Origin: Salminus brasiliensis
Lineage: Eukaryota; Chordata; Actinopteri; Characiformes; Bryconidae
Length of the DNA stretch: 64,000 bases
NCBI RefSeq assembly: GCF_030463535.1
Contig: NC_132901.1
Coordinates: forward strand, 8,190,959 to 8,254,958
Direction of reading: 5' to 3'
The notes beneath the pieces were generated by a model. The model was not told where the DNA came from. It worked only from the letters and a program-made list of their open reading frames with translations, and did no database searches. Made by a program: the position numbers and the translations under genes. How positions within the stretch are numbered: the stretch's first letter is position 1; every line of letters starts with the position of its first letter. This document shows positions 10,362-62,235 of this stretch, piece after piece.

Positions 10362-13300
10362 TTATTTTGGGGTTAGACGGCGGATGGGGTTATTTGGTTT
10401 CATGGTTAGAATGATGTTAAGGTTATGTTGTACTAGGTTAAGAGGGAGGACAGAGTTATTTTGTATTAGGACTATTTGGTTTGGTTCACTAAAAGATGAA
10501 TTTGGTTGAAGCCTTAGGTTAATGGTGAGATTCGAGCGAGCAAGAATAGGTTCAGAGCTAGACTTTTGATGTAGAGGGTCGGAGCAAGGCAAAAGGACGA
10601 GGGTAGAGTAAGTAAAATAGTATGGCGGTCAAAGACCTCAGGTTTATGATGAAGGTGGATTGAGTTAAAGTGACGGTGAGCTTAAGCCTTTGCCTTAGGA
10701 TACAAAGGAAGGTTCAGTAAAAGTGAGTTTCAACATTAGCCATCAGCCTGATGATTTGGATACACATGGCCTCGGCCTACTGAGGAATGCACATCTAAGT
10801 AGAATGGTCATGACTGCATGGAATGGGTTAAATGAAAGTAAAAGTTTAAAAATAATAATTTGGTGTGTTGCTTATTGAGATAGAGGGAGGGATGGGGTTA
10901 ATTTGTTTTAGTACAAGAATGAAATTGGAGTTGTTTCATGTGAGAGGTTCGAATGAGGATGGGGAGTGATTTTGTATAATGGTTGGAGGAAGGATGGTGT
11001 TATTTCCTTTTAGGGTTGGAGAGAGAAGGTCGTGGGGTTTGTATTAGAGTATGAATGAAAATGGGTTATTTTATTTTGGGGTTAGACGGCGGATGGGGTT
11101 ATTTGGTTTCATGGTTAGAATGATGTTAAGGTTATGTTGTACTAGGTTAAGAGGGAGGACAGAGTTATTTTGTATTAGGACTATTTGGTTTGGTTCACTA
11201 AAAGATGAATTTGGTTGAAGCCTTAGGTTAATGGTGAGATTCGAGCGAGCAAGAATAGGTTCAGAGCTAGACTTTTGATGTAGAGGGTCGGAGCAAGGCA
11301 AAAGGACGAGGGTAGAGTAAGTAAAATAGTATGGCGGTCAAAGACCTCAGGTTTATGATGAAGGTGGATTGAGTTAAAGTGACGGTGAGCTTAAGCCTTT
11401 GCCTTAGGATACAAAGGAAGGTTCAGTAAAAGTGAGTTTCAACATTAGCCATCAGCCTGATGATTTGGATACACATGGCCTCGGCCTACTGAGGAATGCA
11501 CATCTAAGTAGAATGGTCATGACTGCATGGAATGGGTTAAATGAAAGTAAAAGTTTAAAAATAATAATTTGGTGTGTTGCTTATTGAGATAGAGGGAGGG
11601 ATGGGGTTAATTTGTTTTAGTACAAGAATGAGATTTGAGTTGTTTCATGTGAGGGGTTCGAATGAGGATGGAGTGATTTTGTATAATGGTTGGAGGAAGG
11701 ATGGGGTTATTTCATTTTAGGGTTTGTGAGAGAAGGTGGTGGGGTTTGTATTAGAGTATGAATGGAAATGGGTTATTTTATTTTGGGGTTAGACGGCGGA
11801 TGGGGTTATTTGTTTTCATGGTTAGAATGATGTTAAGGTTATGTTGTACTAGGTTAAGAGGGAGGACAGAGTTATTTTGTATTAGGACTATTTGGTTTGG
11901 TTCACTAAAAGATGAATTTGGTTGAAGTCTTAGGTTAATGGTGAGATTCGAGCGAGCAAGAATAGGTTCATAGATATTTTTTTGATGTAGAGGGTCGGAG
12001 CAATGCAAAAGGACGAGGGTAGAGTAAGTAAAATAGTATGGCGGTCAAAGGCCTCAGTTTTATGATGAAGGTGGATTGAGTTAAAGTGACGGTGAGCTTA
12101 AGCCTTTGCCTTAGGATACAAAGGAAGGTTCAGTAAAAGTGAGTTTCAACATTAGCCATCAGCCTCATGATTTGGATATACATGGCCTCGGCCTACTGAG
12201 GAATGCACATCTAAGTAGAATGGTCATGACTGCATGGAATGGGTTAAATGAAAGTAAAAGTTTAAAAATAATAATTTGGTGTGTTGCTTATTGAGATAGA
12301 GGGAGGGATGGGGTTAATTTGTTTTAGGACAAGAATGAGATTGGAGTTGTTTCATGTGAGGGGTTCGAATGAGGATGGGGAGTGATTTTGTATAATGGTT
12401 GGAGGAAGGATGGTGTTATTTCATTTTAGGGTTGGAGAGAGAAGGTGGTGGGGTTTGTATTAGAGTATGAATGAAAATGGGTTATTTTATTTTGGGGTTA
12501 GACGGCGGATGGGGTTATTTGGTTTCATGGTTAGAATGATGTTAAGGTTATGTTGTACTAGGTTAAGAGGGAGGACAGAGTTATTTTGTATTAGGACTAT
12601 TTGGTTTGGTTCACTAAAAGATGAATTTGGTTGAAGCCTTAGGTTAATGGTGAGATTCGAGCGAGCAAGAATAGGTTCAGAGCTAGACTTATGATGTAGA
12701 GGGTCGGAGCAAGGCAAAAGGACGAGGGTAGAGTAAGTAAAATAGTATGGCGGTCAAAGGCCTCAGTTTTATGATGAAGGTGGATTGAGTTAAAGTGACG
12801 GTGAGTTTAAGCCTTTGCCTTAGGATACAAAGGAAGGTTCAGTAAAAGTGAGTTTCAACATTAGCCATCAGCCTGATGATTTGGATACACATGGCCTCGG
12901 CCTACTGAGGAATGCACATCTAAGTAGAATGGTCATGACTGCATGGAATGGGTTAAATGAAAGTAAAAGTTTAAAAATAATAATTTGGTGTGTTGCTTAT
13001 TGAGATAGAGGGAGGGATGGGGTTAATTTGTTTTAGTACAAGAATGAGATTTGAGTTGTTTCATGTGAGGGGTTCGAATGAGGATGGAGTGATTTTGTAT
13101 AATGGTTGGAGGAAGGATGGGGTTATTTTATTTAGGGTTGGAGAGAGAAAATGGTTATTTTCTATTAGGGTTAAAATGAAAAATGGGGTTTTAGGGTTTA
13201 AATGAGCTTGGGTTTATTTTGTATTGGGGTTAGAGTGAAGGTGCAGTTATTTTGTATTAGGCTTGAAAAAGGGCATGATTGTTTTATGTTATGTTTAGAA

Positions 13301-13419
13301 TAAGTTTTGTCTTTTTTTTTTTGTTATTTTGTTTTTTGTGTTTTAGGGTTGGGGGGGTGTATGCAGTTATTTTGTGTTAGGGTTAGTATGAGATTTTTGG
13401 CTATGGTATATTGGGTGTG

Positions 13420-13882
13420 TTACGAGTGCGTATTAGGGGACCTATGGAGAGCCGTTCCGAGTGTGGAAGCGCCGGTGACAAAGACGCATCGACGGTGGAA
13501 GTCATACTGCGCACACACGGCAACACTGTGCTTTACACACTCCTCAAGGTCGCCTCGCACGACGAGCAAAACAACGCACCCACGTCTCGGATGCCCAGCA
13601 CGCTCTCGACGAGGCTCTCCTCCAACGCACCGGATAACACTCGCCCAGTTCGTGGCACCTTTTGTCGCCGTTTTCCACCGATTAGCACGCCAAATGCGCC
13701 GCCGCCCGTTCGGCACGCCGGTAGCGTGGCACGCTTCGGTGAGCGCCGTATTAAACGCGGCGTCGTTACGCTGCCCTTCCCGTCTTCTCAACACACGGTG
13801 GAGCCTCTCGGAGACGAAAGAGCATTTCTACGCTCGCCAAGTTGAGCTTTCACCCATATTTCGCTCGACAAACGCCGAGAGA
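13420..13882. other. GC-rich, CpG-rich block upstream of H1, U1
   Basis: Composition changes abruptly from G/T-rich satellite to CpG-rich sequence at about 13420. The block stays open in several frames on both strands (up to about 220 codons on + and 124 on -), as expected when GC-rich DNA has few stops. None of the translations is recognised, and a U1/U3 difference near 13554 (TCG against TTG) is non-synonymous in the 144-codon frame. It is most likely a CpG-rich distal promoter of H1; an eroded gene fragment cannot be excluded. Confidence 0.5.
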
Positions 13883-13967
13883 AAACACAAGTGCGAGACT
13901 GTCGCTGCCACACGGCTGTGCGGCATCGAGCGAGTTGAGTCTACAACGTTCTCATGTGGCTTTTAAG
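13883..13967 (+). promoter_or_regulatory. H1 promoter with AC box, U1
   Basis: AAACACA at 13883-13889 matches the H1-specific AC box known upstream of vertebrate H1 genes. A TATA-like CTTTTAAG lies at 13960-13967, about 90 bases before the H1 start codon, followed by GGCCGGCCCC. Confidence 0.7.
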
Positions 13968-14050
13968 GGCCGGCCCCCTCGCTGCAGCGGGAGGTTCTAC
14001 AGAACGCTTCAGCAGTTTGTGCTCACTCGCGCTCACAGCAAAGCAGAACA

Positions 14051-14674
14051 ATGGCAGAAGTAGCTCCAGCCCCAGCCGCCTCGGCGCCCGCCAAGGCCCC
14101 CAAGAAGAAGGCCGCCGCTCGCCCCAAGAAAGCCGGCCCCAGCGTGGGCGAGCTCATCGTCAAGGCCGTCTCGGCTTCCAAGGAGAGGAGCGGCGTGTCT
14201 CTCGCCGCCCTGAAGAAAGCCCTGGCTGCCGGCGGCTACGACGTCGAGAAGAAAAACTCACGCGTTAAGCTCGCCGTCAAGAGCCTCGTCACCAAGGGCA
14301 CTCTGGTGCAGACCAAAGGCACCGGCGCGTCGGGCTCTTTCAAGCTTAACAAGAAGCAGACCGAGGCAAAGAAGAAGCCGGCCGCCAAGAAACCGGCACC
14401 TAAAGCTAAGAAGCCGGCCGCCAAGAAACCAGCCGCGGCCAAGAAGCCCAAGAAGGTAGCAGCCAAGAAACCCACTGCGGCTAAGAAATCCCCCAAGAAG
14501 GCCAAGAAGCCCGTCGCGGCCGCTAAGAAGGCAGCGAAGAGCCCCAAGAAGGCCAAGAAGCCGGCGGCTCCCAAAAAGGCGACCAAGAGCCCAAAGAAAG
14601 CCAAAACGGTCAAGCCTAAAGCAGCTAAGCCCAAGGCGGCGAAGGCGAAAAAGGCTGCCCCTAAGAAGAAGTAA
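14051..14674 (+). CDS. H1: Linker histone H1, U1
   Basis: Linker histone of 207 codons that binds the nucleosome dyad and linker DNA. A short Ala/Pro/Lys N-terminal tail (1-27) is followed by the winged-helix globular domain (about 28-104: [20 protein letters not shown] through [20 protein letters not shown]), then a Lys/Ala/Pro-rich tail with three SPKK motifs typical of cyclin-dependent-kinase sites. The length equals that of salmonid H1. Residue 68 is Lys (codon AAA, 14252-14254), where U3 and U4 have Asn (AAC) in the normally conserved [10 protein letters not shown] motif; one base change accounts for it. The gene is expected to work, but this copy is the odd one. Confidence 0.98.
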
Positions 14675-14717
14675 ACAGTAACGCCGTTTACCTTCATGTC
14701 TTGTTTCTCTATTCAAC

Positions 14718-14733
14718 GGCTCTTTTAAGAGCC
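14718..14733 (+). terminator. Histone mRNA 3' stem-loop, H1 U1
   Basis: GGCTCTTTTAAGAGCC followed by ACCCA, 44 bases after the H1 stop codon. The downstream A-rich element (CATAAAAAAACAGC, about 14745-14758) is the likely U7 pairing site. Confidence 0.96.
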
Positions 14734-15092
14734 ACCCACAGTTTCATAAAAAAACAGCTTTTTTCCCCCCTTGTTACTGCATAATGAATTGATTGTTAAA
14801 AAAAAAAAAAAACACTCAACACAAAAATAGCTCTCATTAGTTTCCCCACACAATAATTATATATGATCAATATATATATATATTTTTGGTTTGGTCATAC
14901 GTGTTACATTTGAGCGGGAAAGGGAAAGAAAACGCGGGGCACGAGTGGGGGTAAATGTTTCTTTCTTTAACCCGTTTTCTTTCTTCCTTTCTCTCTCTCG
15001 CTCACACAGACACACAGCACGAGAGGAGGAGGGGGTCGGGTAGGAAAGCGAGCAGAGGTGGGAGGACGCTAGAGTCTGACGGCGGAAATGCG
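14734..15092. other. H1-H2A intergenic region, U1
   Basis: Contains an A-run near 14800, a TA run near 14868-14883, pyrimidine-rich stretches around 14960-15000 and a purine-rich stretch near 15020-15065. No gene is seen. Confidence 0.7.
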
Positions 15093-15603
<511 letters not shown>

Positions 15604-15637
15604 ATTGGCGCTCTCCGTTGATTTATCTATACACAAA

Positions 15638-15653
15638 GGCTCTTTTAAGAGCC
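15638..15653 (+). terminator. Histone mRNA 3' stem-loop, H2A U1
   Basis: CAAAGGCTCTTTTAAGAGCC followed by ACCCA. The CAAA-flanked version is closest to the textbook signal. The purine-rich AAGAAAAGTGCTG at 15667-15679 is the likely U7 site. Confidence 0.97.
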
Positions 15654-15864
15654 ACCCATTTTTTCTAAGAAAAGTGCTGCTCCTTTACAAACAACACTAC
15701 ATATTCTTCACGTGATTTCCAACTGCATAAAAAAATAATAGCTTTATGAACCGAGTTATTATATAAACACACTGCCATGCAATACACAATTGCCCTTTTT
15801 CATATATTTCACGTACTGAGATCAACACCCTATGCATATGTGCATGTATACACACATTCTCTCG

Positions 15865-15906
<42 letters not shown>

Positions 15907-16058
15907 GTGTTTAATGTTCGCTGTAATGTACAGTACATTGATTAGTTTGATCATATTATTGTTCTTATTATTATATATTCTTTTAATGCTTTTTTTTTCT
16001 TTGTTGTTTTGTATTACAGGAGCCCGCCGTTTTGCTTTTAGGTTTGAAAAGAAGACGC
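15654..16058. other. H2A-H3 intergenic region with CA microsatellite, U1
   Basis: AT-rich sequence with no gene. A CA repeat at 15873-15904 has 16 copies here, against 12 in U3 and 8 in U4, so it distinguishes units. A T-rich stretch ending TATTACAGG near 16020 resembles a splice acceptor but has no supporting exon. Confidence 0.75.
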
Positions 16059-16628
<570 letters not shown>

Positions 16629-16663
16629 ACAGAGCGCTTCGACGTTTACCTGAAATACCCAAC

Positions 16664-16679
16664 GGCTCTTTTAAGAGCC
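16664..16679 (+). terminator. Histone mRNA 3' stem-loop, H3 U1
   Basis: CAACGGCTCTTTTAAGAGCC followed by ACCTA, 35 bases after the H3 stop codon. GCCGAAACAGCAAATG just downstream (about 16695-16710) is a weaker candidate U7 site than at H2B. Confidence 0.95.
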
Positions 16680-17314
16680 ACCTACCCGTGTCCGCGCCGA
16701 AACAGCAAATGTCCGCCTCACCTCGGTGTTGCGTTTATATAATGTAAGGCTATTATGACGCGCGCGCGCTTCTAAGTTCCATAGGGCTGCGCGAGCAAAA
16801 CCAGCCGTAAGACAGTGGTTGTAAAGTTTAGCAAAAAAAACAACAACTAATATATATGTATATATATATTATAACGTTTTGTACAACATTTCACATCAAA
16901 ATCGCCATATTTAACATGTGTTTTAATACATATTAATACGTTTCTTTAAATACCTATCAATATGATTATACATATTTAATAGTTTGGAAACAGTTCATTC
17001 ACCCCAGCAAAAAGTTGAAGCCACTGCTACTTCAGTAGAACACTACACTTTACCCTATGTAGTGTTTAGGCCGGTTTTGGCCTATTACAAACGGCATTTG
17101 ACATGGATGGAGCGTGGATCCCACCGCGTGGTGAAACTATACAACTGCAAGCACAGTTTCAGAGAGCAATGTATGTGTATATTTATATAATGAGAGCTTG
17201 ATTTTGGGTACCTACGTTTCATACATATGCAAAATGAGTTTGATTCCATAGAGAGTAAGCGAGACCAGCTGTGGGGCCGCAGTAAAGGAGTTAAGTGTAT
17301 ATTCCGGAGAGGAC

Positions 17315-18410
17315 CACCGTTGTTGTGGGAACGCAGACATATGTCATGGATGGAGCGTGGATGCCATCGTGTGGTCAAACTAGGCAAATGCAAACGTTAA
17401 CTACGTAGATTTATTCGTGTATGTGTGTGAATGTAACAGCTTTTTTCATTTGATAGATGGTTGTGAACTCCAGTACGTCTACTAAATCATTTGTATTGCG
17501 GTGTTATTTTGGTTAGTGTTTTTTAAAGTACATTTTAAAAAATGTTTCTATTGAAGCATACTTCAGTTCAGGGCATTTTAGTAGCCAGCATGGTTACCAG
17601 TTCTCATGCTGCCAGGCAATGAAATGGAAACTTAATTTAGGGTAATTTTATACACATTAAATATGATTGTTAACTGCACCAACAAATCTAAAAAGTAATT
17701 ACGTGTCTTACGTGATGATTTTCGTTTGGGCTTGGGTTTCATTTCAACAATATGCTAACGATAACATACTCCAGACTGTATAATCTCCTTCCACAACTAG
17801 ATAAAATGTCTTGTTTTGAAGAACGCTTGATAGAAGTCTTTAATAAAGGCACTTTATTAGCCATCATGACAACCAAACAGCATGCAGTTATGTAAAAAGC
17901 CACCAATTTACTCACTGCTAGAAGCCATTGAGACAAACTATAGAGTAGTGCACTTCTATGTAGGACCTTTATTTCCTTTTCTTTAGAGCCCTTAAACTCT
18001 GTGTATTAGCTTATATTGAGGTTACCATAATAATCATAAATCAGTAAAAAACACCGCTCATCTGCTATCAAGACCTGACCGAGGAGCTGGAGGCCAGTGG
18101 AGCAAAGCTAAAATATGGAAAAGCATACGCACCCTCAAATTGGTGCAAAAAAAAATAAATAATAATTTTAATCATTCAAGGCATAGGTAAGTAACAAATG
18201 AATACAAAAGTGCTAACAAAAGTGAATGAAAAGCCAGCCGTACTCACTTGTGAATTCGCTTTTTTGATTTTGCTTCTTTAAACGTCTCTGTGGACCAAAA
18301 AAAAAAAGATTAATTGTTTTACATTTTAACCACACGATGGCATCCACGCTCCATTTACGTACTATGACCACAGACTTAAAGCTTAGCCCTGAAACTCCAT
18401 CAGATGCCTA
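17315..18410. repeat. 1.1 kb spacer duplication, copy 1, U1
   Basis: Aligns along its length with 18489-19604. It has inverted ends: 17350-17375 (starting ATGGAGCGTGGATGCCATCG) is the exact inverted complement of 18329-18354 over 26 bases. Shared internal landmarks include GATGGTTGTGAACTCCAGTA, CCAGGCAATGAAA, GATTGTTAACTGCACCAA and GAGGCCAGTGGAGCAAAGCT. The inverted ends suggest a foldback or terminal-inverted-repeat element, but no transposase is present. Confidence 0.8.
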
Positions 18411-19125
18411 AAAGACTTGACTAGAGAAGTGCACTTCTGTGTAGTGTATACAGTGTAAGGGATTTAGGAAGTGCCCTATTGCAAACGTCACCGTTGTTTT
18501 GGTATCGTGGATATATGTCATGGATGGAGCGTGGATGCCATCGTGTGGTCAAACTCGCAAATGCAAACGCTAAAAACATAGATGTATACGTGTATGTGTG
18601 TGAATGTTACAGCTTTTACATATGACAGATGGTTGTGAACTCCAGTAAGTCTACTAAGATCTACCAAGGAACATTTGGGCATTTTAGTAGCCAGCATGAT
18701 AACCAGTTGTCATGCTACCAGGCAATGAAAACTTAATTTAGGGCACTGCAATTTTTATACACATTAAATATGATTGTTAACTGCACCAATACATCTAAAA
18801 AGTCATTACATGTCTTGCGGGATGATTTTTGTTTGGGTTTTAACAATATGCTAATGATAAAGTAGGACAGAATTTTTTTTTACTCCAGACTGTATTACCT
18901 CCTTCCACAACTCGATCAAATGGCTTTAGATAAAGAATCCTTGATAGAAGCATTCTTTATTTAAGGCACTTTTTTATCAGTTAGGTAAAAAGCCAACAAT
19001 TCGCTCACTACTATAAGCCATTGAGACAAACTGTAGAGTAGTGCAATTCTATGAATGACGTTTTTCCCCTCCCCCTTTAGAGCCCTTAAATTCTATGCTG
19101 TATGGTTATGTGTATGTATGTATGC

Positions 19126-26031: not shown

Positions 26032-29000
26032 TTTTTTTGTTGGGTCACAGAAGGGTGAAGTTATTCAAAGCCTTAGGTTTATGGTGAGATTTGAGTGAGC
26101 AAGAATAGGTTCAGAGCTAGACTTTTGATGTAGAGGGTCGGAGCAAGGCAAAAGGACGAGGGTAGAGTAAGTAAAATAGTATGGCGGTCAAAGGCCTCAG
26201 GTTTATGATGAAGGTGGATTGAGTTAAAGTGACCGTGAGCTTAGGCCGTTGCCTTAGGATACAAAGGAAGGTTCAGTAAAAGTGAGTTTCAACATTAGCC
26301 ATCAGCCTCATGATTTGGATACACATGGCCTCGGCCTACTGAGGAATGCACATCTAAGTAGAATGGTCATGACTGCATGGAATGGGTTAAATGAAAGTAA
26401 AAGTTTTAAAATAATAATTTGGTGTGTTGCTTATTGGGATAGAGGGAGGGATGGGGTTAATTTGTTTTAGTACAAGAATGAGATTGGAGTTGTTTCATGT
26501 GAGGGGTTTGAATGAGGATGGGGAGTGATTTTGTATAATGGTTGGAGGAAGGATGGGGTTATTTGGTTTCATGGTTAGAATGATGTTAAGGTTATGTTGT
26601 ACTAGGTTAAGAGGGAGGACAGAGTTATTTTGTATTAGGACTACTTGGTTTGGTCACAAAAAGATGAATTTGGTTGAAGCCTTAGGTTAATGGTGAGATT
26701 CGAGCGAGCAAGAATAGGTTCAGAGCTAGACTTTTGATGTAGAGGGTCGGAGCAAGGCAAAAAGACGAGGGTAGAGTAAGTAAATTTAGGTAGCGTAAGT
26801 AAAAAAAGTATGGCGGTGAAAGTGTGTTTAGTGCAGATGTGATCTAGGAAGAGTGAGTAACAGCAGCTTTGTAAACGAGGCCTCAGGTTTATGATGGAGG
26901 TGGATTGTGTTAAAGTGACTGTGAGCTTAGGCCTTTGCCTTAGGAAGCTTCAGAAAAAGTGAATTTCAACATTGGCCATCAGCCTGATGATTTGGATACA
27001 CATGGCCTCGGCCTACTGAGGAATGCACATCTAAGTAGAATGGTCATGACTGCATGGAATGGGTTAAATGAAAGTAAAAGTTTAAAAATAATAATTTGGT
27101 GTGTTGCTTATTGAGATAGAGGGAGGGATGGGGTTAATTTGTTTTAGTACAAGAATGAAATTGGAGTTGTTTCATGTGAGAGGTTCGAATGAGGATGGGG
27201 AGTGATTTTGTATAATGGTTGGAGGAAGGATGGTGTTATTTCATTTTAGGGTTGGAGAGAGAAGGTCGTGGGGTTTGTATTAGAGTATGAATGAAAATGG
27301 GTTATTTTATTTTGGGGTTAGACGGCGGATGGGGTTATTTGGTTTCATGGTTAGAATGATGTTAAGGTTATGTTGTACTAGGTTAAGAGGGAGGACAGAG
27401 TTATTTTGTATTAGGACTATTTGGTTTGGTTCACTAAAAGATGAATTTGGTTGAAGCCTTAGGTTAATGGTGAGATTCGAGCGAGCAAGAATAGGTTCAG
27501 AGCTAGACTTTTGATGTAGAGGGTCGGAGCAAGGCAAAAGGACGAGGGTAGAGTAAGTAAAATAGTATGGCGGTCAAAGACCTCAGGTTTATGATGAAGG
27601 TGGATTGAGTTAAAGTGACGGTGAGCTTAAGCCTTTGCCTTAGGATACAAAGGAAGGTTCAGTAAAAGTGAGTTTCAACATTAGCCATCAGCCTGATGAT
27701 TTGGATACACATGGCCTCGGCCTACTGAGGAATGCACATCTAAGTAGAATGGTCATGACTGCATGGAATGGGTTAAATGAAAGTAAAAGTTTAAAAATAA
27801 TAATTTGGTGTGTTGCTTATTGAGATAGAGGGAGGGATGGGGTTAATTTGTTTTAGTACAAGAATGAGATTTGAGTTGTTTCATGTGAGGGGTTCGAATG
27901 AGGATGGAGTGATTTTGTATAATGGTTGGAGGAAGGATGGGGTTATTTCATTTTAGGGTTTGTGAGAGAAGGTGGTGGGGTTTGTATTAGAGTATGAATG
28001 GAAATGGGTTATTTTATTTTGGGGTTAGACGGCGGATGGGGTTATTTGTTTTCATGGTTAGAATGATGTTAAGGTTATGTTGTACTAGGTTAAGAGGGAG
28101 GACAGAGTTATTTTGTATTAGGACTATTTGGTTTGGTTCACTAAAAGATGAATTTGGTTGAAGTCTTAGGTTAATGGTGAGATTCGAGCGAGCAAGAATA
28201 GGTTCATAGATATTTTTTTGATGTAGAGGGTCGGAGCAATGCAAAAGGACGAGGGTAGAGTAAGTAAAATAGTATGGCGGTCAAAGGCCTCAGTTTTATG
28301 ATGAAGGTGGATTGAGTTAAAGTGACGGTGAGCTTAAGCCTTTGCCTTAGGATACAAAGGAAGGTTCAGTAAAAGTGAGTTTCAACATTAGCCATCAGCC
28401 TCATGATTTGGATACACATGGCCTCGGCCTACTGAGGAATGCACATCTAAGTAGAATGGTCATGACTGCATGGAATGGGTTAAATGAAAGTAAAAGTTTA
28501 AAAATAATAATTTGGTGTGTTGCTTATTGAGATAGAGGGAGGGATGGGGTTAATTTGTTTTAGTACAAGAATGAAATTGGAGTTGTTTCATGTGAGAGGT
28601 TCGAATGAGGATGGGGAGTGATTTTGTATAATGGTTGGAGGAAGGATGGTGTTATTTCATTTTAGGGTTGGAGAGAGAAGGTCGTGGGGTTTGTATTAGA
28701 GTATGAATGAAAATGGGTTATTTTATTTTGGGGTTAGACGGCGGATGGGGTTATTTGGTTTCATGGTTAGAATGATGTTAAGGTTATGTTGTACTAGGTT
28801 AAGAGGGAGGACAGAGTTATTTTGTATTAGGACTATTTGGTTTGGTTCACTAAAAGATGAATTTGGTTGAAGCCTTAGGTTAATGGTGAGATTCGAGCGA
28901 GCAAGAATAGGTTCAGAGCTAGACTTTTGATGTAGAGGGTCGGAGCAAGGCAAAAGGACGAGGGTAGAGTAAGTAAAATAGTATGGCGGTCAAAGACCTC

Positions 29001-30524
29001 AGGTTTATGATGAAGGTGGATTGAGTTAAAGTGACGGTGAGCTTAAGCCTTTGCCTTAGGATACAAAGGAAGGTTCAGTAAAAGTGAGTTTCAACATTAG
29101 CCATCAGCCTGATGATTTGGATACACATGGCCTCGGCCTACTGAGGAATGCACATCTAAGTAGAATGGTCATGACTGCATGGAATGGGTTAAATGAAAGT
29201 AAAAGTTTAAAAATAATAATTTGGTGTGTTGCTTATTGAGATAGAGGGAGGGATGGGGTTAATTTGTTTTAGTACAAGAATGAGATTTGAGTTGTTTCAT
29301 GTGAGGGGTTCGAATGAGGATGGAGTGATTTTGTATAATGGTTGGAGGAAGGATGGGGTTATTTCATTTTAGGGTTTGTGAGAGAAGGTGGTGGGGTTTG
29401 TATTAGAGTATGAATGGAAATGGGTTATTTTATTTTGGGGTTAGACGGCGGATGGGGTTATTTGTTTTCATGGTTAGAATGATGTTAAGGTTATGTTGTA
29501 CTAGGTTAAGAGGGAGGACAGAGTTATTTTGTATTAGGACTATTTGGTTTGGTTCACTAAAAGATGAATTTGGTTGAAGTCTTAGGTTAATGGTGAGATT
29601 CGAGCGAGCAAGAATAGGTTCATAGATATTTTTTTGATGTAGAGGGTCGGAGCAATGCAAAAGGACGAGGGTAGAGTAAGTAAAATAGTATGGCGGTCAA
29701 AGGCCTCAGTTTTATGATGAAGGTGGATTGAGTTAAAGTGACGGTGAGCTTAAGCCTTTGCCTTAGGATACAAAGGAAGGTTCAGTAAAAGTGAGTTTCA
29801 ACATTAGCCATCAGCCTGATGATTTGGATACACATGGCATCGGCCTACTGAGGAATGCACATCTAAGTAGAATGGTCATGACTGCATGGAATGGGTTAAA
29901 TGAAAGTAAAAGTTTAAAAATAATAATTTGGTGTGTTGCTTATTGAGATAGAGGGAGGGATGGGGTTAATTTGTTTTAGGACAAGAATGAGATTGGAGTT
30001 GTTTCATGTGAGGGGTTTGAATGAGGATGGGGAGTGATTTTGTATAATGGTTGGAGGAAGGATGGTGTTATTTCATTTTAGGGTTGGAGAGAGAAGGTCG
30101 TGGGGTTTGTATTAGAGTATGAATGAAAATGGGTTATTTTATTTTGGGGTTAGACGGCGGATGGGGTTATTTGGTTTCATGGTTAGAATGATGTTAAGGT
30201 TATGTTGTACTAGGTTAAGAGGGAGGACAGAGTTATTTTGTATTAGGACTATTTGGTTTGGTTCACTAAAAGATGAATTTGGTTGAAGCCTTAGGTTAAT
30301 GGTGAGATTCGAGCGAGCAAGAATAGGTTCAGAGCTAGACTTATGATGTAGAGGGTCGGAGCAAGGCAAAAGGACGAGGGTAGAGTAAGTAAAATAGTAT
30401 GGCGGTCAAAGGCCTCAGTTTTATGATGAAGGTGGATTGAGTTAAAGTGACGGTGAGTTTAAGCCTTTGCCTTAGGATACAAAGGAAGGTTCAGTAAAAG
30501 TGAGTTTCAACATTAGCCATCAGC
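26032..30524. repeat. Satellite array, U2
   Basis: About 4.5 kb. The first full monomer has lost 99 bp, exactly three 33-bp units, between two GGATGGGGTTATTT blocks (near 26550). Further landmarks lie at 27307 (a), 28014 (b), 28723 (a), 29430 (b) and 30139 (a, the terminal variant). The array stops inside the last monomer at the sequence CATTAGCCATCAGC, where the deletion junction begins. No higher-order a-b-c pattern is kept; the order is a-b-a-b-a. Confidence 0.92.
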
Positions 30525-30531
30525 AATCAGT
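30521..30531. other. Deletion junction removing H1-H2A-H3 from U2
   Basis: Satellite ending GCCATCAGC (through 30524) joins a 3-base filler AAT and then CAGTAAAGGAGTTAAG, which in U1 begins at 17280. Compared with U1, positions 12873-17279 (about 4.4 kb with H1, H2A and H3 and their promoters) are absent. The short filler and lack of homology look like end joining. Confidence 0.85.
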
Positions 30532-30562
30532 AAAGGAGTTAAGTGTATATTCCGGAGAGGAC

Positions 30563-31658
30563 CACCGTTGTTGTGGGAACGCAGACATATGTCATGGATG
30601 GAGCGTGGCTGCCATCGTGTGGTCAAACTAGGCAAATGCAAACGTTAACTACGTAGATTTATTCGTGTATGTGTGTGAATGTAACAGCTTTTTTCATTTG
30701 ATAGATGGTTGTGAACTCCAGTACGTCTACTAAATCATTTGTATTGCGGTGTTATTTTGGTTAGTGTTTTTTAAAGTACATTTTAAAAAATGTTTCTATT
30801 GAAGCATACTTCAGTTCAGGGCATTTTAGTAGCCAGCATGGTTACCAGTTCTCATGCTGCCAGGCAATGAAATGGAAACTTAATTTAGGGTAATTTTATA
30901 CACATTAAATATGATTGTTAACTGCACCAACAAATCTAAAAAGTAATTACGTGTCTTACGTGATGATTTTCGTTTGGGCTTGGGTTTCATTTCAACAATA
31001 TGCTAACGATAACATACTCCAGACTGTATAATCTCCTTCCACAACTAGATAAAATGTCTTGTTTTGAAGAACGCTTGATAGAAGTCTTTAATAAAGGCAC
31101 TTTATTAGCCATCATGACAACCAAACAGCATGCAGTTATGTAAAAAGCCACCAATTTACTCACTGCTAGAAGCCATTGAGACAAACTATAGAGTAGTGCA
31201 CTTCTATGTAGGACCTTTATTTCCTTTTCTTTAGAGCCCTTAAACTCTGTGTATTAGCTTATATTGAGGTTACCATAATAATCATAAATCAGTAAAAAAC
31301 ACCGCTCATCTGCTATCAAGACCTGACCGAGGAGCTGGAGGCCAGTGGAGCAAAGCTAAAATATGGAAAAGCATACGCACCCTCAAATTGGTGCAAAAAA
31401 AAATAAATAATAATTTTAATCATTCAAGGCATAGGTAAGTAACAAATGAATACAAAAGTGCTAACAAAAGTGAATGAAAAGCCAGCCGTACTCACTTGTG
31501 AATTCGCTTTTTTGATTTTGCTTCTTTAAACGTCTCTGTGGACCAAAAAAAAAAAGATTAATTGTTTTACATTTTAACCACACGATGGCATCCACGCTCC
31601 ATTTACGTACTATGACCACAGACTTAAAGCTTAGCCCTGAAACTCCATCAGAAGCCTA
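30563..31658. repeat. 1.1 kb spacer duplication, copy 1, U2
   Basis: Counterpart of 17315-18410. Its left inverted end carries one private change (GCGTGGCTGCC near 30607), so its ends no longer match perfectly. Confidence 0.78.
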
Positions 31659-31736
31659 AAAGACTTGACTAGAGAAGTGCACTTCTGTGTAGTGTATACA
31701 GTGTAAGGGATTTAGGAAGTGCCCTATTGCAAACGT

Positions 31737-32852
31737 CACCGTTGTTTTGGTATCGTGGATATATGTCATGGATGGAGCGTGGATGCCATCGTGTGGTCAA
31801 ACTCGCAAATGCAAACGCTAAAAACATAGATGTATACGTGTATGTGTGTGAATGTTACAGCTTTTACATATGACAGATGGTTGTGAACTCCAGTAAGTCT
31901 ACTAAGATCTACCAAGGAACATTTGGGCATTTTAGTAGCCAGCATGATAACCAGTTGTCATGCTACCAGGCAATGAAAACTTAATTTAGGGCACTGCAAT
32001 TTTTATACACATTAAATATGATTGTTAACTGCACCAATACATCTAAAAAGTCATTACATGTCTTGCGGGATGATTTTTGTTTGGGTTTTAACAATATGCT
32101 AATGATAAAGTAGGACAGAATTTTTTTTTACTCCAGACTGTATTACCTCCTTCCACAACTCGATCAAATGGCTTTAGATAAAGAATCCTTGATAGAAGCA
32201 TTCTTTATTTAAGGCACTTTTTTATCAGTTAGGTAAAAAGCCAACAATTCGCTCACTACTATAAGCCATTGAGACAAACTGTAGAGTAGTGCAATTCTAT
32301 GAATGACGTTTTTCCCCTCCCCCTTTAGAGCCCTTAAATTCTATGCTGTATGGTTATGTGTATGTATGTATGCATCAGCTTATATTGAGGTTAACATAAT
32401 AATCATAAATCAATAAAGAACACCGCTCATCTGCTATCAAGACCTGACTAAGGAGCTAGAGGCCAGTGGAGCAAAGCTACAATTACGAAAAGCATACGCA
32501 CCATCGGTGCAAAAAAATCATTTTAACCTGCCAGGTTTAGGTCAGAGACTTTCTTCAAGGCATAGGTAAGTAACAAATGAATACAAAAGTGCTAACAAAA
32601 GTGTATCAAAAGCCAGCCGTACTCACTTGTGAATTAGCTTTTTTGTGCTTCTCAAATTGAACTCTTTCTCTTCTTTCTGATTTTGCTTCTTTAAATGTCT
32701 CTGTGGACCAAGAAAAAAAAAACTAAAAAAAAAGATGAATTGTTTTATATTTTGCAGATTTACATTTTGACCACCAGATGGCATCCACGCTCCATTCACG
32801 TACTACGACAACAGACTTAAAGCTTAGCCCTGAAACTCCATCAGAAGCCTAA
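31737..32852. repeat. 1.1 kb spacer duplication, copy 2, U2
   Basis: Counterpart of 18489-19604; includes the CTCF-like CCACCAGATGGCAT at 32771-32784. Confidence 0.78.
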
Positions 32853-33393
32853 GGGGTAGGTCTAGCCAAACTGCTTCCCCTCACCCTGACTTCATCATGA
32901 GCTCTACACTTACTTTGCTTACCACAATGTCTTTCCATATTTCTTTATCATCCACTAACTGCAACATATGATAAAAGCAACATTACTTAAAGCAACATTA
33001 ACTCCCTCTGTGTTTATCTAATCTAGCATGACTTTTATTAGAAGATGTAAAGCGAGCCTGAGAAATCCAAGGGGTAAACATGTAGTTTTAGTTGGCCTCA
33101 TTAGGAGCTTTTCCCTTGTATGCAATAATATACCATTTATTCGATTTGTGTTTGTTCTTTCTTTCTTTAAATGTCTCTGTGGACACTATATCTTTAACTT
33201 GTAGTGTATTAGATTAACGACTACAATTCCCATGATGCCTAACTAAAGATTTTTTTGCACCGATGGTGCGTATGCTTTTCGTAATTGTAGCTTTGCTCCA
33301 CTGGCCTCTAGCTCCTTAGTCAGGTCTTGATAGCAGATGAGCGGTGTTCTTTATTGATTTATGATTATTATGTTAACCTCAATATAAGCTGAT
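32374..33393. repeat. 146-bp inverted repeat pair, U2
   Basis: Arms 32374-32519 and 33248-33393, complementary along their length, with the ZNF143-like motif at 33220-33238 between them. Confidence 0.85.
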
Positions 33394-33985
33394 AAAACCT
33401 TGCCAAATAAAATTATTTTTGCACAGATTTAATTGTGTGGGTATGAGACATGTTAGTATTATTCCTACATTCACTTCTCATTGGTGAAGATCTTCTCTAA
33501 TGGCCAATGTCAGTGTTAACACTTTACTGTACATCCTATACATTTGCACTCCTGGACACTACTAACACTTTATTATTATTACTTAATAATACAGTGTTAT
33601 TATTAAATTTTTATGTATCGTCATCTGTCCACTTCATTTCTTATTTTTCATAACTGCACTGTCCTTCATCTGCAGTTAGTTTCAAATGCATTTTCACATG
33701 TATTCTATTTATCTGTCTATCTATCTATCTTGCAGTGTGGGTTCTAACTAGACAAAGGACTCCAAAAGTCATGTTTGTGTTTTTAAACCACAGTATTGAC
33801 TTTGTCCTCATGTAACTCATGTATAGTGTAACTGGGTATCTCAGTATCTTCACCTGGATTTATTGATCCAAAACTGTAGTTTAGTGATGTCAAGGTTCAA
33901 ATGTTTAAAGTCATGTCATGTTGAATGTTGTGAGGGAATACGTCTGAAAATATATGGAACCTGGCCTGGCAGATACATATTCTGA

Positions 33986-33999
33986 CCACCAGATGGCAT
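33986..33999 (+). promoter_or_regulatory. CTCF-like motif, U2 site 2
   Basis: CCACCAGATGGCAT in the partial third duplicate, as in U1. Confidence 0.4.
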
Positions 34000-34307
34000 C
34001 ACTACTCCATTCACGTTCTGCAACTACATAGTCTTAGGGCCTAGCCCTGAAACTCCATCAGAAGCCTAAGAGGTAGGTCCAGCCGAACTGCTACCACTCA
34101 TCCTGACTTCATCATGAGCTTTACACTTACTTTGCTCACCACAATTTATTTCCTTCCTTTCTCTTCCACTAACTGCTAACCAATATGACTTTAGAAGAAG
34201 ATTTATTAGAAGATGTATAGTGAAAACCTGAGGAATCCAAATGGTGTGGGTTTAGTTTAAGTTGGCCTTGTTTTATTTTATGTGCAGAAATATGTCAGTG
34301 GTGGTGG

Positions 34308-34448
<141 letters not shown>

Positions 34449-34638
34449 ATGCATACTTATTCAATCTGACAGAAAATACAAACCCTGTACTGGTTTGTGT
34501 TTGAGCAATATGTGTTGACAAAGAAAAAAAGAACAAATTACTGGTTGAATCTATAAAACACTATGCTTCCTTTAAGTGTGTCTATGTCAATGTGTCAATG
34601 ACACAATGTGTCTTTATCCTGTAGTGTCAAGATCAAGG

Positions 34639-34657
34639 ACTACAATTCCCATGATGC
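34639..34657 (+). promoter_or_regulatory. ZNF143-like motif, U2 site 2
   Basis: ACTACAATTCCCATGATGC, the same position relative to the CpG-containing ATG as in U1. Confidence 0.5.
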
Positions 34658-36387
34658 CTAACTACAAGTTCAGCCTATTGACACACGTGCCATGTATTAG
34701 GACTAATCACGTGTTGTTTTAGAACGTTTTCGAAAAGTATAGATGACGTACAGTGTTTTATTGATTCCACCATTCATGTGATCCGGCTCTTTAATTCTTG
34801 AATTTGATTTATTGTTGTACTGGGTTGTTGGCGTTGTATTTTCTAAACGTTGCAAACCCTTTGTATGTGGATTTACTTGTTCAATATGTTGTCATGGAGC
34901 CTGTCTCTCTCTCTCTATCTTTGTCTATCTCTCTATGTATACATATCTATCTACCTACCTACCTTCCTACCTACCACCCTCCCTCTCTTCATCTAATGAT
35001 GAAATCCGATAACTGCACGTCCAGTCACAGTAAAAAGTAAACCGTGTGCCATGGTGTACAGTAGTGGGCTGATCTCAGTGTGTGCTTGTTTTATGCTTGC
35101 AAGGTCGTAACCCTAGTACTAAATAGCCATTTATGTCATTTATTCAGGCATTCAGGTGCATTGAGGGAGGACACGTACTCTTGTCGTGTGTGTGTGTGAA
35201 ATAATCGCTACGCACGTTAGAATGGCGTGATGTAGTGTGACTTTGTTGTATACGAGACCGAGGCGCACATGGCGACAGCCATCAGAGGGGAGTGGACGGC
35301 TGACCGAGGTATTTGTCGTGTTAAGACCTATGTTAACTACTTTTAATGTTCATACATGTGAAACGTCGTCTTTACATGACGACATGTGAGTCATTACACT
35401 TTGCGTTGCTTTGTGGAATAGGCGTGAGCTGGAGACTGGACCTGGTCAGCTCCGTTGTGTCGCTGTTGGCACGATAACGTTTGCTAACTTGCCAAAAATG
35501 AAGTGGATACTGAAATCCGATAAGTCGATTTTGCGGAGAGCCTAAAGTTGTACACCCAGTCACAGCAAATCGACGTAGAACTGCCGTTGCTGGATCTATG
35601 TGTGGAGTTGTACATAGCTTGGAGCCAGCTTAGCGATTAGCAGCGTGGCTAACTCGGCCAGCATAAACAGTAAAGCACAAATATGAGCCTAATTATGAGG
35701 GGTCATTATTTATTGACCACAGTGCAGTGCCACATGCGGAGTTGTAGCATAAAAGTACGCAATACAGCCGTGATTTGTGGCTGTTGAGTGATTTGAGTTA
35801 ACTTGCTTTTTCAGGTCCACACATGAGCTAACATAGCGATTAGCATGCTAGCTAACTCGGATGGTACAAACAATAGCATTACGCCAGCGAGTGTAAATAC
35901 CTGTCAGATAAATACACACTCGCTCGAGTCAGTCAGGTTTTATTATGAAACCGTGTATATAGCTAGCAACATTTTATACGTTTACTGCCGTGGTTGAAAT
36001 CGAGAAGCCACCTCGGAGAGTAGCATGATGGCTAGGTGTCTAAAAATTAATCACAAAAATAACGATATTACGGACACGTGCGTAGTTCTCTATATTGTTA
36101 TTTGGAGCAAGTGAGGGAGAAACAGTCGTGCTTAAACCCGGCTACCAGCAGCGTATCTTCTGGTTTTCAGAGCTGGGCGGCCTGTGTAGCTTGCTAGCTA
36201 GTGTTTTGTTTACAAAAGATTATTTTCGTTATTAGCTAGTTGCCGAAACGGCATCGGTCAACCGAAAAAACGAACAAACAAAAAAACAATGCAATTTCGC
36301 TCGTTGGCCAATAGTTAAACAGTAAAAAAGCTCAGAAAAAGCTATGACATTAGAACCGGAGTTGCACTGTCCAATTCCCAAGCAGCT

Positions 36388-36446
36388 CACTACTCCCTAT
36401 GGAGTGCACGGTGTCACGAAAAAACGCTGTGCACTAGGGAGTAGTG
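36388..36446. mobile_element. Small hairpin (MITE-like) element upstream of H4, U2
   Basis: Arms 36388-36409 and 36429-36446; same element and site as at 23102, so it predates amplification of the units. Confidence 0.45.
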
Positions 36447-36533
36447 GAGTGCGGTTTAGGATCGCCCCAGGTGTACGAAGGAAGACTTCATGCATGGAGC
36501 ATGGGGTGTCATCCTGTGGTAAAACACGGAAAG

Positions 36534-36534
<1 letters not shown>

Positions 36535-36585
<51 letters not shown>
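36535..36585. repeat. TA microsatellite upstream of H4, U2/U3 boundary
   Basis: About 25 TA units, followed by CACAC. Confidence 0.95.
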
Positions 36586-36590
<5 letters not shown>

Positions 36591-37091
36591 TTGGCGTTAT
36601 TATTGTAGTAATTGATTTTTAGAAAACAGTGCATAAATGTTTATTTACAAAGGCCACATGGCCCCTATCCACTTCTTACAGTGACTCAAAGTAGGCTCAT
36701 ACACAGCCTCACTAAACAGTTCATCTTATGCCTAGGTCACTGAATTGTATGAATTTATTCAGTTATTTATTTATTTAAGATTTCGCCATAAGACCAATCT
36801 ATTTCAGAAATGATTTTAGCTCTTAATTGCAGTTTAGGTTACTTCGTCATTATATGGTCAAGCAGGTCTGGAGCTAGGCTGTAGGTTTCAAAGCTAAATC
36901 ATGTTGAGTTAAAGTATTCACAGTGAAGGTTATGCATGATCCAAAGTGTGCTGCGTTATTTTGAACATGAGTACATCCAGAGAGAACGGAATTCTGGTTG
37001 ACTGTATTTTGTATGGCTACCCACTCAGTGGCTATACAGCAAAACAAGCGTTCTGCACACGTACAGAGTATGAGGCGGAGCTGATGTACTG

Positions 37092-37522
<431 letters not shown>

Positions 37523-37552
37523 ACGCTCGGCCTGAACAGCTCTAAACCCAAC

Positions 37553-37568
37553 GGCTCTTTTAAGAGCC
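37553..37568 (+). terminator. Histone mRNA 3' stem-loop, H4 U3
   Basis: GGCTCTTTTAAGAGCC with ACCCA and a downstream AAAAGAGC. Confidence 0.97.
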
Positions 37569-37984
37569 ACCCACAAATCCAGCAAAAGAGCCTGTTTCTA
37601 ATCTTAGCTTGTTTGTTTCAAATAAGGCAGTCTCCCGGATACTCTGTATTAAGAATGTAATATACGGGAAGAGTACATATATGTTACTTTGTATATATGT
37701 ATTGTTTTACACCCCCCCCCGTATGCGTTGGTAAAATCAGAACTATACGTCTTAATAAATCCTGATAGTCGCCGTCAACGCCGCTGTGGCGAAAAACAGA
37801 TTAAGCCCTGTAGATTAAAAATGCGCGGGAAGGCGAACAAAGAGTTGATCATATTTGTTTGTTTCAATAAAGTCAATGATGGTGGTTATGAATCTCGGTT
37901 ACTCCGGTTACTTTGTTAAGAAGCTCATTTTCAGGAGGAAAAAACATAATTTATATATAATATTTATATATATATATGACATTA

Positions 37985-38287: not shown

Positions 38288-38784
<497 letters not shown>

Positions 38785-38814
38785 ATGGTGATAGCGGCGT
38801 AATCCAAACCCAAC

Positions 38815-38830
38815 GGCTCTTTTAAGAGCC
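38815..38830 (+). terminator. Histone mRNA 3' stem-loop, H2B U3
   Basis: GGCTCTTTTAAGAGCC with ACCCA and AAAGAGCAG downstream. Confidence 0.97.
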
Positions 38831-39328
38831 ACCCACGGTTTCTTCGAAAGAGCAGTTTTATTCAAGAACAAAGTCGCCGATGGTAAGCTATAATACTAAT
38901 TATTATTATTAATATTATTATTTTTTTTTTTTTCCCCCATGAGTGCTTCTGCAGCCATTATTGTAAAAGGAATGCCCTTCAGTGTATGTATGTATGTATG
39001 TAAATCAACTTACTTAGTTGTTTGTCTGCATTTAATTGGTATAGTATACTAAGATTCAGGGGCAGAGCAGCAAACTAAAATACTGTGCCATACTAACTGT
39101 ATGGCGTGGGGTTGTAATGCTAAGTGGGATAAATGAAGCTGCACATCACCTGTGAAAGACCAGTCCAGAGGAGATCAGCCTTACAGGTGGGGAATAGTGA
39201 GGCAGGAAACCATACTAGGGTTGACTTGAAGCCTAGAACTATACACTTGATCTTTGTAATGAAAGCTGTCTAGTATATATAACCAGGCATACGGTTAGGA
39301 AAGAGAGGAAATAAGTATCTCCACAAGC
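38831..39328. other. Post-H2B single-copy flank, U3
   Basis: As in U1, with a longer T-run near 38923 and an intermediate GTAT microsatellite. No gene is seen. Confidence 0.65.
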
Positions 39329-42315
39329 TTTTTTTGTTGGGTCACAGAAGGGTGAAGTTATTCAAAGCCTTAGGTTTATGGTGAGATTTGAGTGAGCAAG
39401 AATAGGTTCAGAGCTAGACTTTTGATGTAGAGGGTCGGAGCAAGGCAAAAGGACGAGGGTAGAGTAAGTAAAATAGTATGGCGGTCAAAGGCCTCAGGTT
39501 TATGATGAAGGTGGATTGAGTTAAAGTGACCGTGAGCTTAGGCCTTTGCCTTAGGATACAAAGGAAGGTTCAGTAAAAGTGAATTTCAGCATTAGCCATC
39601 AGCCTGATGATTTGGATACACATGGCCTCGGCCTACTGAGGAATGCACATCTAAGTAGAATGGTCATGACTGCATGGAATGGGTTAAATGAAAGTAAAAG
39701 TTTAAAAATAATAATTTGGTGTGTTGCTTATTGAGATAGAGGGAGGGATGGGGTTAATTTGTTTTAGGACAAGAATGAGATTGGAGTTGTTTCATGTGAG
39801 GGGTTCGAATGAGGATGGAGTGATTTTGTTTAATGGTTGGCGGAAGGATGGGGTTATTTCATTTTAGGTTTTGTGAGAGAAGGTGGTGGGGTTTGTATTA
39901 GAGTATGAATGGAAATGGGTTATTTTATTTTGGGGTTAGACGGCGGATGGGGTTATTTGGTTTCATGGTTAGAATGATGTTAAGGTTATGTTGTACTAGG
40001 TTAAGAGGGAGGACAGAGTTATTTTGTATTAGGACTACTTGGTTTGGTCACAAAAAGATGAATTTGGTTGAAGCCTTAGGTTAATGGTGAGATTCGAGCG
40101 AGCAAGAATAGGTTCAGAGCTAGACTTTTGATGTAGAGGGTCGGAGCAAGGCAAAAAGACGAGGGTAGAGTAAGTAAATTTAGGTAGCGTAAGTAAAAAA
40201 GTATGGCGGTGAAAGTGTGTTTAGTGCAGATGTGATCTAGGAAGAGTGAGTAACAGCAGCTTTGTAAACGAGGCCTCAGGTTTATGATGGAGGTGGATTG
40301 TGTTAAAGTGACTGTGAGCTTAGGCCTTTGCCTTAGGAAGGTTCAGAAAAAGTGAATTTCAACATTGGCCATCAGCCTGATGATTTGGATACACATGGCC
40401 TCGGCCTACTGAGGAATGCAGATCTAAGTAGAATGGTCATGACTGCATGGAATGGGTTAAATGAAAGTAAAAGTTTAAAAATAATAATTTGGTGTGTTGC
40501 TTATTGAGATAGAGGGAGGGATGGGGTTAATTTGTTTTAGTACAAGAATGAAATTGGAGTTGTTTCATGTGAGAGGTTCGAATGAGGATGGGGAGTGATT
40601 TTGTATAATGGTTGGAGGAAGGATGGGGTTATTTCATTTTAGGGTTGGAGAGAGAAGGTCGTGGGGTTTGTATTAGAGTATGAATGAAAATGGGTTATTT
40701 TATTTTGGGGTTAGACGGCGGATGGGGTTATTTGGTTTCATGGTTAGAATGATGTTAAGGTTATGTTGTACTAGGTTAAGAAGGAGGACAGAGTTATTTT
40801 GTATTAGGACTATTTGGTTTGGTTCACTAAAAGATGAATTTGGTTGAAGCCTTAGGTTAATGGTGAGATTCGAGCGAGCAAGAATAGGTTCAGAGCTAGA
40901 CTTTTGATGTAGAGGGTCGGAGCAAGGCAAAAGGACGAGGGTAGAGTAAGTAAAATAGTATTGCGGTCAAAGACCTCAGGTTTATGATGAAGGTGGATTG
41001 AGTTAAAGTGACGGTGAGCTTAAGCCTTTGCCTTAGGATACAAAGGAAGGTTCAGTAAAAGTGAGTTTCAACATTAGCCATCAGCCTGATGATTTGGATA
41101 CACATGGCCTCGGCCTACTGAGGAATGCACATCTAAATAGAATGGTCATGACTGCATGGAATGGGTTAAATGAAAGTAAAAGTTTAAAAATAATAATTTG
41201 GTGTGTTGCTTATTGAGATAGAGGGAGGGATGGGGTTAATTTGTTTTAGTACAAGAATGAGATTTGAGTTGTTTCATGTGAGGGGTTCGAATGAGGATGG
41301 AGTGATTTTGTATAATGGTTGGAGGAAGGATGGGGTTATTTCATTTTAGGGTTTGTGAGAGAAGGTGGTGGGGTTTGTATTAGAGTATGAATGGAAATGG
41401 GTTATTTTATTTTGGGGTTAGACGGCGGATGGGGTTATTTGGTTTCATGGTTAGAATGATGTTAAGGTTATGTTGTACTAGGTTAAGAGGGAGGACAGAG
41501 TTATTTTGTATTAGGACTATTTGGTTTGGTTCACTAAAAGATGAATTTGGTTGAAGTCTTAGGTTAATGGTGAGATTCGAGCGAGCAAGAATAGGTTCAT
41601 AGATATTTTTTTGATGTAGAGGGTCGGAGCAATGCAAAAGGACGAGGGTAGAGTAAGTAAAATAGTATGGCGGTCAAAGGCCTCAGTTTTATGATGAAGG
41701 TGGATTGAGTTAAAGTGACGGTGAGTTTAAGCCTTTGCCTTAGGATACAAAGGAAGGTTCAGTAAAAGTGAGTTTCAACATTAGCCATCAGCCTGATGAT
41801 TTGGATACACATGGCCTCGGCCTACTGAGGAATGCACATCTAAGTAGAATGGTCATGACTGCATGGAATGGGTTAAATGAAAGTAAAAGTTTAAAAATAA
41901 TAATTTGGTGTGTTGCTTATTGAGATAGAGGGAGGGATGGGGTTAATTTGTTTTAGTACAAGAATGAGATTTGAGTTGTTTCATGTGAGGGGTTCGAATG
42001 AGGATGGAGTGATTTTGTATAATGGTTGGAGGAAGGATGGGGTTATTTTATTTAGGGTTGGAGAGAGAAAATGGTTATTTTCTATTAGGGTTAAAATGAA
42101 AAATGGGGTTTTAGGGTTTAAATGAGCTTGGGTTTATTTTGTATTGGGGTTAGAGTGAAGGTGCAGTTATTTTGTATTAGGCTTGAAAAAGGGCATGTTA
42201 GTTTTATGTTATGTTTAGAATAAGTTTTGTCTTTTTTTTTTTGTTATTTTGTTTTTTGTGTTTTAGGGTTGGGGGGGTGTATGCAGTTATTTTGTGTTAG
42301 GGTTAGTATGAGATT
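39329..42315. repeat. Satellite array, U3
   Basis: About 3 kb: one c-type monomer (landmark about 39925), an a-type (40700) and a b-type (41407), then the decaying 33-bp tail. The b monomer is a hybrid: it keeps b markers (TTCATAGATATTTTTTTGAT) but has an a-type TTTGGTTTCATGG segment. The terminal a variant seen in U1, U2 and U4 is missing. Confidence 0.9.
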
Positions 42316-62226: not shown

Positions 62227-62235
62227 CTGCATTTA
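62222..62235. other. Deletion junction removing H4-H2B before U5
   Basis: Spacer sequence AGCTTAGCCCTG (equivalent to U1 18391) continues directly as CTGCATTTAATTGG, which normally lies about 240 bases past the H2B stop codon. The shared CTG at 62227-62229 is a 3-base microhomology. Against the U1-U2 order, about 7.3 kb (18392-25731) with H4 and H2B is absent. Confidence 0.85.

Follow-up and report, generated by a model that had tools for sequence, protein, structure and literature searches.

Background

The histone genes of Drosophila melanogaster form a tandem array of a five-gene unit, the quintet, in near-identical copies, and the part of the published account accessible to us attributes both their changes in copy number and their spread to intrachromosomal exchange (PMC12400953). 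Other arrays have as their regular unit core-histone quartets that lack H1, as described in the accessible part of PMC8382920. The array analysed here resembles the quintets in its tandem five-gene unit, its near-identical copies and their probable spread by exchange, but its units are ~14-25 kb long, long satellite tracts included, and many of them lack whole gene blocks through what appear to be end-joined breaks; we found no account of half-units in the accessible part of PMC12400953. Like the H1-less quartets (PMC8382920), certain repeats here miss part of the five-gene set; unlike them, these H4-H2B pairs are minority variants among full units, and the scars of the breaks are visible. The joins resemble the scars of polymerase theta and other end joining, as covered in the accessible parts of PMC4490562 and PMC12426944, in being deletions whose ends share 0-3 bases or enclose a short filler, but the scar that we call J1 appears to have been multiplied by homologous exchange, and end joining as its pathway is inferred.

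Concerted evolution is expected either to purge a broken unit or to spread it. End joining and homologous exchange are both familiar, and arrays of this kind can be expected to contain partial units; the mechanisms that we propose are ordinary, and the J1 example is unusually readable. It appears to preserve both steps in one assembly, namely the birth of a half-unit through end joining, which left a unique 3-base tag, and its subsequent multiplication by homologous exchange. In salmonids the histone repeat has the order H4-H2B-H1-H2A-H3 on one strand, and the circular gene order and strand are the same here. A literature search covering mostly papers outside subscription found no description of this array or of half-units.

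Layout of the array

The window, by which we mean the whole stretch of 64,000 bp analysed (C28:8190959-8254958), carries a tandem histone array with every gene on the + strand, in which the unit runs H1, H2A, H3, a 6.6-kb spacer, H4, H2B and then satellite made of ~0.7-kb monomers. All five histone genes, the set of the replication-dependent repeat, are present in units U1 and U3. The H1 sequences suggest that the array probably comes from a fish. For comparison we used a wider region of 250 kb and searched the genome of 1.066 Gb; contig C28 holds two histone arrays, at 7.61-8.33 Mb and 11.31-12.07 Mb, with array ends among the marker positions at 7608645 and 11311883.

A half-unit without H1, H2A and H3

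The first-pass annotation had proposed that the unit U2 retains only H4 and H2B, about 4.4 kb having been lost where the last satellite monomer meets the post-H3 spacer across the bases AAT. Self-comparison of the window bore out this description in its coordinates, its extent and its gene content. The features concerned are:

26040..30524, + strand: satellite array preceding the U2 half-unit, ~0.7-kb monomers, the last of them cut short by the J1 break (C28 8216998-8221482)
30525..30527, + strand: J1 filler AAT, the identical 3 bases in 6/6 genomic copies
30528..37210, + strand: post-H3 spacer of U2, beginning at the equivalent of U1 17280 and extending to H4
37211..37522, + strand: H4 of U2, intact, 103 aa, with a histone 3' stem-loop at 37548-37593
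38410..38784, + strand: H2B of U2, intact, 124 aa, with a histone 3' stem-loop at 38810-38855
39337..42181, + strand: satellite array after U2, continuing into the next H1 (C28 8230295-8233139)
12873..17279, + strand: U1 block of 4,407 bp without U2 counterpart, comprising the satellite end, H1 (14051-14674), H2A (15217-15603), H3 (16218-16628) and 651 bp of post-H3 sequence

The U2 satellite matches that of U1 without a difference up to 30524 (U1 12872), and from 30528 onward U2 is 99.95% identical to U1 from 17280 over 3,835 bp. The block equivalent to U1 12873-17279 measures 4,402 bp in U3 and 4,398 bp in U4. Both remaining genes of U2 have open frames, and each is followed by the stem-loop of Rfam family RF00032. 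In U1, where alone it was tested, the 3' stem-loop of H3 (window 16659-16705) scores 28.9 against the Rfam gathering score of 34; its hairpin proper is perfect and its downstream part deviates.

The terminal-monomer markers are retained at the break, as had been claimed. The marker GAGTTTAAG has four matches in the window (12803, 30455, 41723 and 56651) and ACTTATGATGTAG has three (12687, 30339 and 56535), those at 30455 and 30339 placing the break in the last monomer. In the wider 250 kb, where four of the six J1 copies entered the comparison, GAGTTTAAG occurs at 10 of 11 full-unit satellite ends and all four J1 flanks tested, and ACTTATGATGTAG at 8 of 11 and three of four, respectively.

A 301-bp probe spanning the U1 breakpoint found 31 matches in the window: 21 are of full length (its own place included), nine begin late yet cross the break to the end of the probe, and one, in U2, ends exactly at 30524. 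As all 30 other satellite matches cross the break point, the J1 join is the derived state. The opposite polarity, with ancestral H4-H2B units, some of which later received the H1-H2A-H3 block by insertion, could draw on the existence of four different H4-H2B-only junctions; however, such a block would have to restore the satellite monomer exactly in phase, as in the 30 matches, and the four half-unit junctions all differ from one another, as losses would, making this reading extremely improbable.

The sequence spanning J1 is CAGCAATCAGT. It joins two parents sharply, with the 3-base filler and zero bases common to both at the join, and the parents differ on either side, as in deletions made by end joining. 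At J1 we found neither long homology of both parents, as a product of unequal crossing over would have, nor near-identical adjacent copies starting at the join, as a tandem duplication would have, and no excess identity. Together, the filler and the lack of homology suggest that end joining made J1. We also considered a templated filler of the polymerase-theta type, for which the local repeats are uninformative: the longest is 5 bases, and ~25% of 5,000 simulated joins reach at least 5, so that it does not go beyond chance.

Six copies of one join

Searched genome-wide with up to 3 mismatches allowed, a 44-mer across J1 gave six matches, every one exact and all in one C28 array (7909674, 7921495, 8138527, 8151224, 8163912 and, in the window, 8221466); a 21-mer across the join recovered the same six C28 places. 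By their 1.5-kb flanks the copies fall into three lineages, namely the pair at 7909/7921 kb (0 differences), the run at 8138/8151/8163 kb (0-2 differences) and the window copy; per 1.5 kb, different lineages are 3-10 differences apart in their left flanks and 3-6 in their right flanks. They stand in tandem runs of two and three: the pair shows 0 mismatches over the 1,517 + 1,501 positions compared, and the first and second whole units of the run of three differ by 4 mismatches in 12,683. The third unit of that run (C28:8165044-8177166) has ~5 kb more spacer before H4, and its H4 match starts from base 14.

Because the identical join, filler included, lies at six places in three lineages, U2 would have inherited J1, and the first-pass view of the deletion as an event of U2 has to be given up. 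Its preference for end joining over unequal crossing over survives for the birth of the join, where the filler and the missing homology speak for it, but not for the six copies, which need homologous exchange. We consider it probable, judging from these sequence comparisons, that J1 is the scar of one old double-strand-break repair and that the half-unit was then multiplied by homologous exchange.

That J1 is a mis-join of the assembly is very improbable. Arrays of this kind are hard to assemble, and the fly histone array required targeted reassembly, which removed misassembly and collapse (accessible part of PMC12400953); yet the six copies share three extra bases while carrying different flanking variants, and a mis-join would favour long identical stretches, whereas J1 has no homology.

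Over ~1,400 bp, the left flanks of four J1 representatives show 0-10 differences among themselves and 3-9 from U1; to the ten remaining full units in the 250 kb the distance is 24-272. Four of these ten have short satellites, which the 1,400 bp overruns, and their figures are inflated for that reason. One of the four, F8112, equals U1 in its closeness to the J1 left flanks over the last 600 columns. The right side of the join lends no support to a single origin: the spacer-to-H2B block of the window copy is nearest to its neighbour U1 (13 mismatches), whereas 35-39 mismatches separate it from the other three J1 copies in the comparison, and just two columns, located in repeat-like sequence, show a state fixed among J1 copies that none of 11 full units has. 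We read this flank as having probably undergone later exchange with neighbours. The U2 spacer as a mosaic or recent copy of U1 was considered as well and is uninformative, identity there being high in all units.

A recent duplication at J2

A second rearranged junction, which the first-pass annotation did not report, lies near the end of the window:

62227..62229, + strand: J2, post-H3 spacer (= U3 47306) joined to post-H2B flank (= U3 54659) with 3 shared bases CTG; single copy in the genome
54659..62229, + strand: first copy of a 7,568-bp tandem duplication, the second copy running from 62227 beyond the window to C28:8260754

C28 8253185-8260754 is a near-copy of 8245617-8253187: the alignment of the two, 7,571 columns long, contains 2 mismatches and 1 indel. 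Beyond the window the second copy is followed by spacer, H4 and H2B. As judged from this alignment, J2 marks a recent tandem duplication that copied satellite-H1-H2A-H3 and is found nowhere else in the genome. The mirror-image deletion, with U4 lacking H4 and H2B, is ruled out by the copy 7,568 bp on and by the near-identical U3-U4 satellite (1 mismatch in 1,333, versus 9-18 for other pairs in the alignment). At 99.96% identity, the J2 duplication is the part most open to assembly error.

The post-H3 spacer at 17107-18553 contains direct as well as inverted copies of a 30-base element; copies lie 70 bp and 37 bp from the spacer breakpoints 17280 and 18391, and the 1,112 bp between the two breakpoints start with CAG and finish with CTG. 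Transposon ends at these breakpoints were rejected and the proximity taken as coincidence, since inspection by eye showed neither terminal inverted repeats at the exact ends nor a target duplication.

The birth of J1

In a tandem array, a deletion in one unit and a partial tandem duplication, whereby a copy of spacer-H4-H2B-satellite is end-joined behind itself and nothing is lost, leave an identical junction; that duplications of this type take place here is shown by J2 of this window. Applied to J1, however, a duplication predicts that the satellite to its left equals that before the next downstream H1, and a mismatch was found instead: the window copy has 38 mismatches to the satellite before the next H1 (8233929) versus 3-5 to U1, and the run of three likewise has 38 (next H1 at 8180640) versus 3-5. 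Moreover, over 9.3 kb U1 and U2 differ at 27 positions, akin to U1-U3 (30) and U2-U3 (28). Later exchange could have erased the signal of a duplication, which we nonetheless regard as an unlikely origin. The birth of J1 is best fitted by a single deletion in a U1-like unit.

Under such a deletion, breaks in the terminal satellite monomer and 651 bp past H3 would have been end-joined with three added bases, presumably by one of the end-joining pathways. The ~4.4 kb thereby removed would have carried H1, H2A and H3, while the H4-H2B half-unit that stayed behind has intact genes. Homologous exchange between repeats, perhaps unequal exchange or long-tract conversion, would then have multiplied the half-unit and moved copies along the array to give six copies in three lineages.

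Other broken units

Comparable events appear to have recurred in both arrays of the chromosome. The second array lacks J1 and has five H4-H2B-only units with three junctions, each unlike J1: K1, in three copies (99.92% and 99.75% to the reference), shares TGT in T-rich sequence; at K2 the filler is 21 bases long; and K3 is blunt. H4-H2B half-units thus total eleven (6+3+1+1) from four independent junctions. The converse loss of H4 and H2B is seen in full in two units, one copy each, at 7939763, where 9 bases of the join are unaligned, and at 7797822, where the two sides overlap by 2 bases; in the unit at 7684566 H4 is cut and H2B was not found. We considered whether one kind of block loss arises more often than the other and dropped the idea, four versus two junctions being too few for a claim.

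Smaller deletions in the first array removed H2A and H3 (3 shared bases, TCA) and the end of H1 with most of H2A (3 shared bases, AAG). Each resolved join, a set without M3, has 0-3 shared bases or a 3-21-base filler. Markers are absent from further units: H2A and H3 at 7865398, where the spacer start is intact, H2A at 7831516 and 7996370, and H2B at 7740684, 7987188 and 11410045. At C28:8112168-8135607 two adjoining units have spacer-to-H2B blocks 1 mismatch apart, and one of them lacks H2A and H3 (the TCA join); the pair is apparently a very young duplication with loss in one copy.

Gene numbers

Gene numbers inside one array can differ: counts of 31-mer markers on C28 are 69 for H1, 70 for H2A and 72 for H3 versus 81 for H2B and 82 for H4, with up to 2 mismatches allowed for the H1, H2A, H3 and H4 markers and up to 3 for H2B. 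These are counts of 31-mers rather than genes, in which altered genes are missed and damaged ones included (H1 and H2A of the D4 unit, and H4 in the last unit of the run of three). The coding H1 marker also has 20 exact matches on the reverse strand of contig C12 (C12:8996293-9384196), whereas the other four, from less conserved stretches, have no match to the C12 cluster. The H1 matches indicate that a third histone cluster exists; the C28 imbalance is therefore not that of the genome.

That half-units are kept and amplified through an advantage of extra H4/H2B dosage, or of a shorter and more readily recombining unit, strikes us as quite doubtful; if true, the array would be evolving as two separable modules and not as one five-gene unit. 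The 3-base filler tag makes the half-unit a traceable marker for copy number, spread and loss in populations.

At window 2560-13187 the satellite shows higher-order repetition every ~2.19 kb, which corresponds to three monomers, and its + strand is strongly skewed, G over C. The first satellite monomer of U0 holds a 902-bp retroelement fragment (window 1658-2559, minus strand); a search of the 250 kb found no other. Its 187-aa open frame matches Pfam ALKBH8_N (1.9e-18) and by eye resembles the end of a reverse transcriptase.
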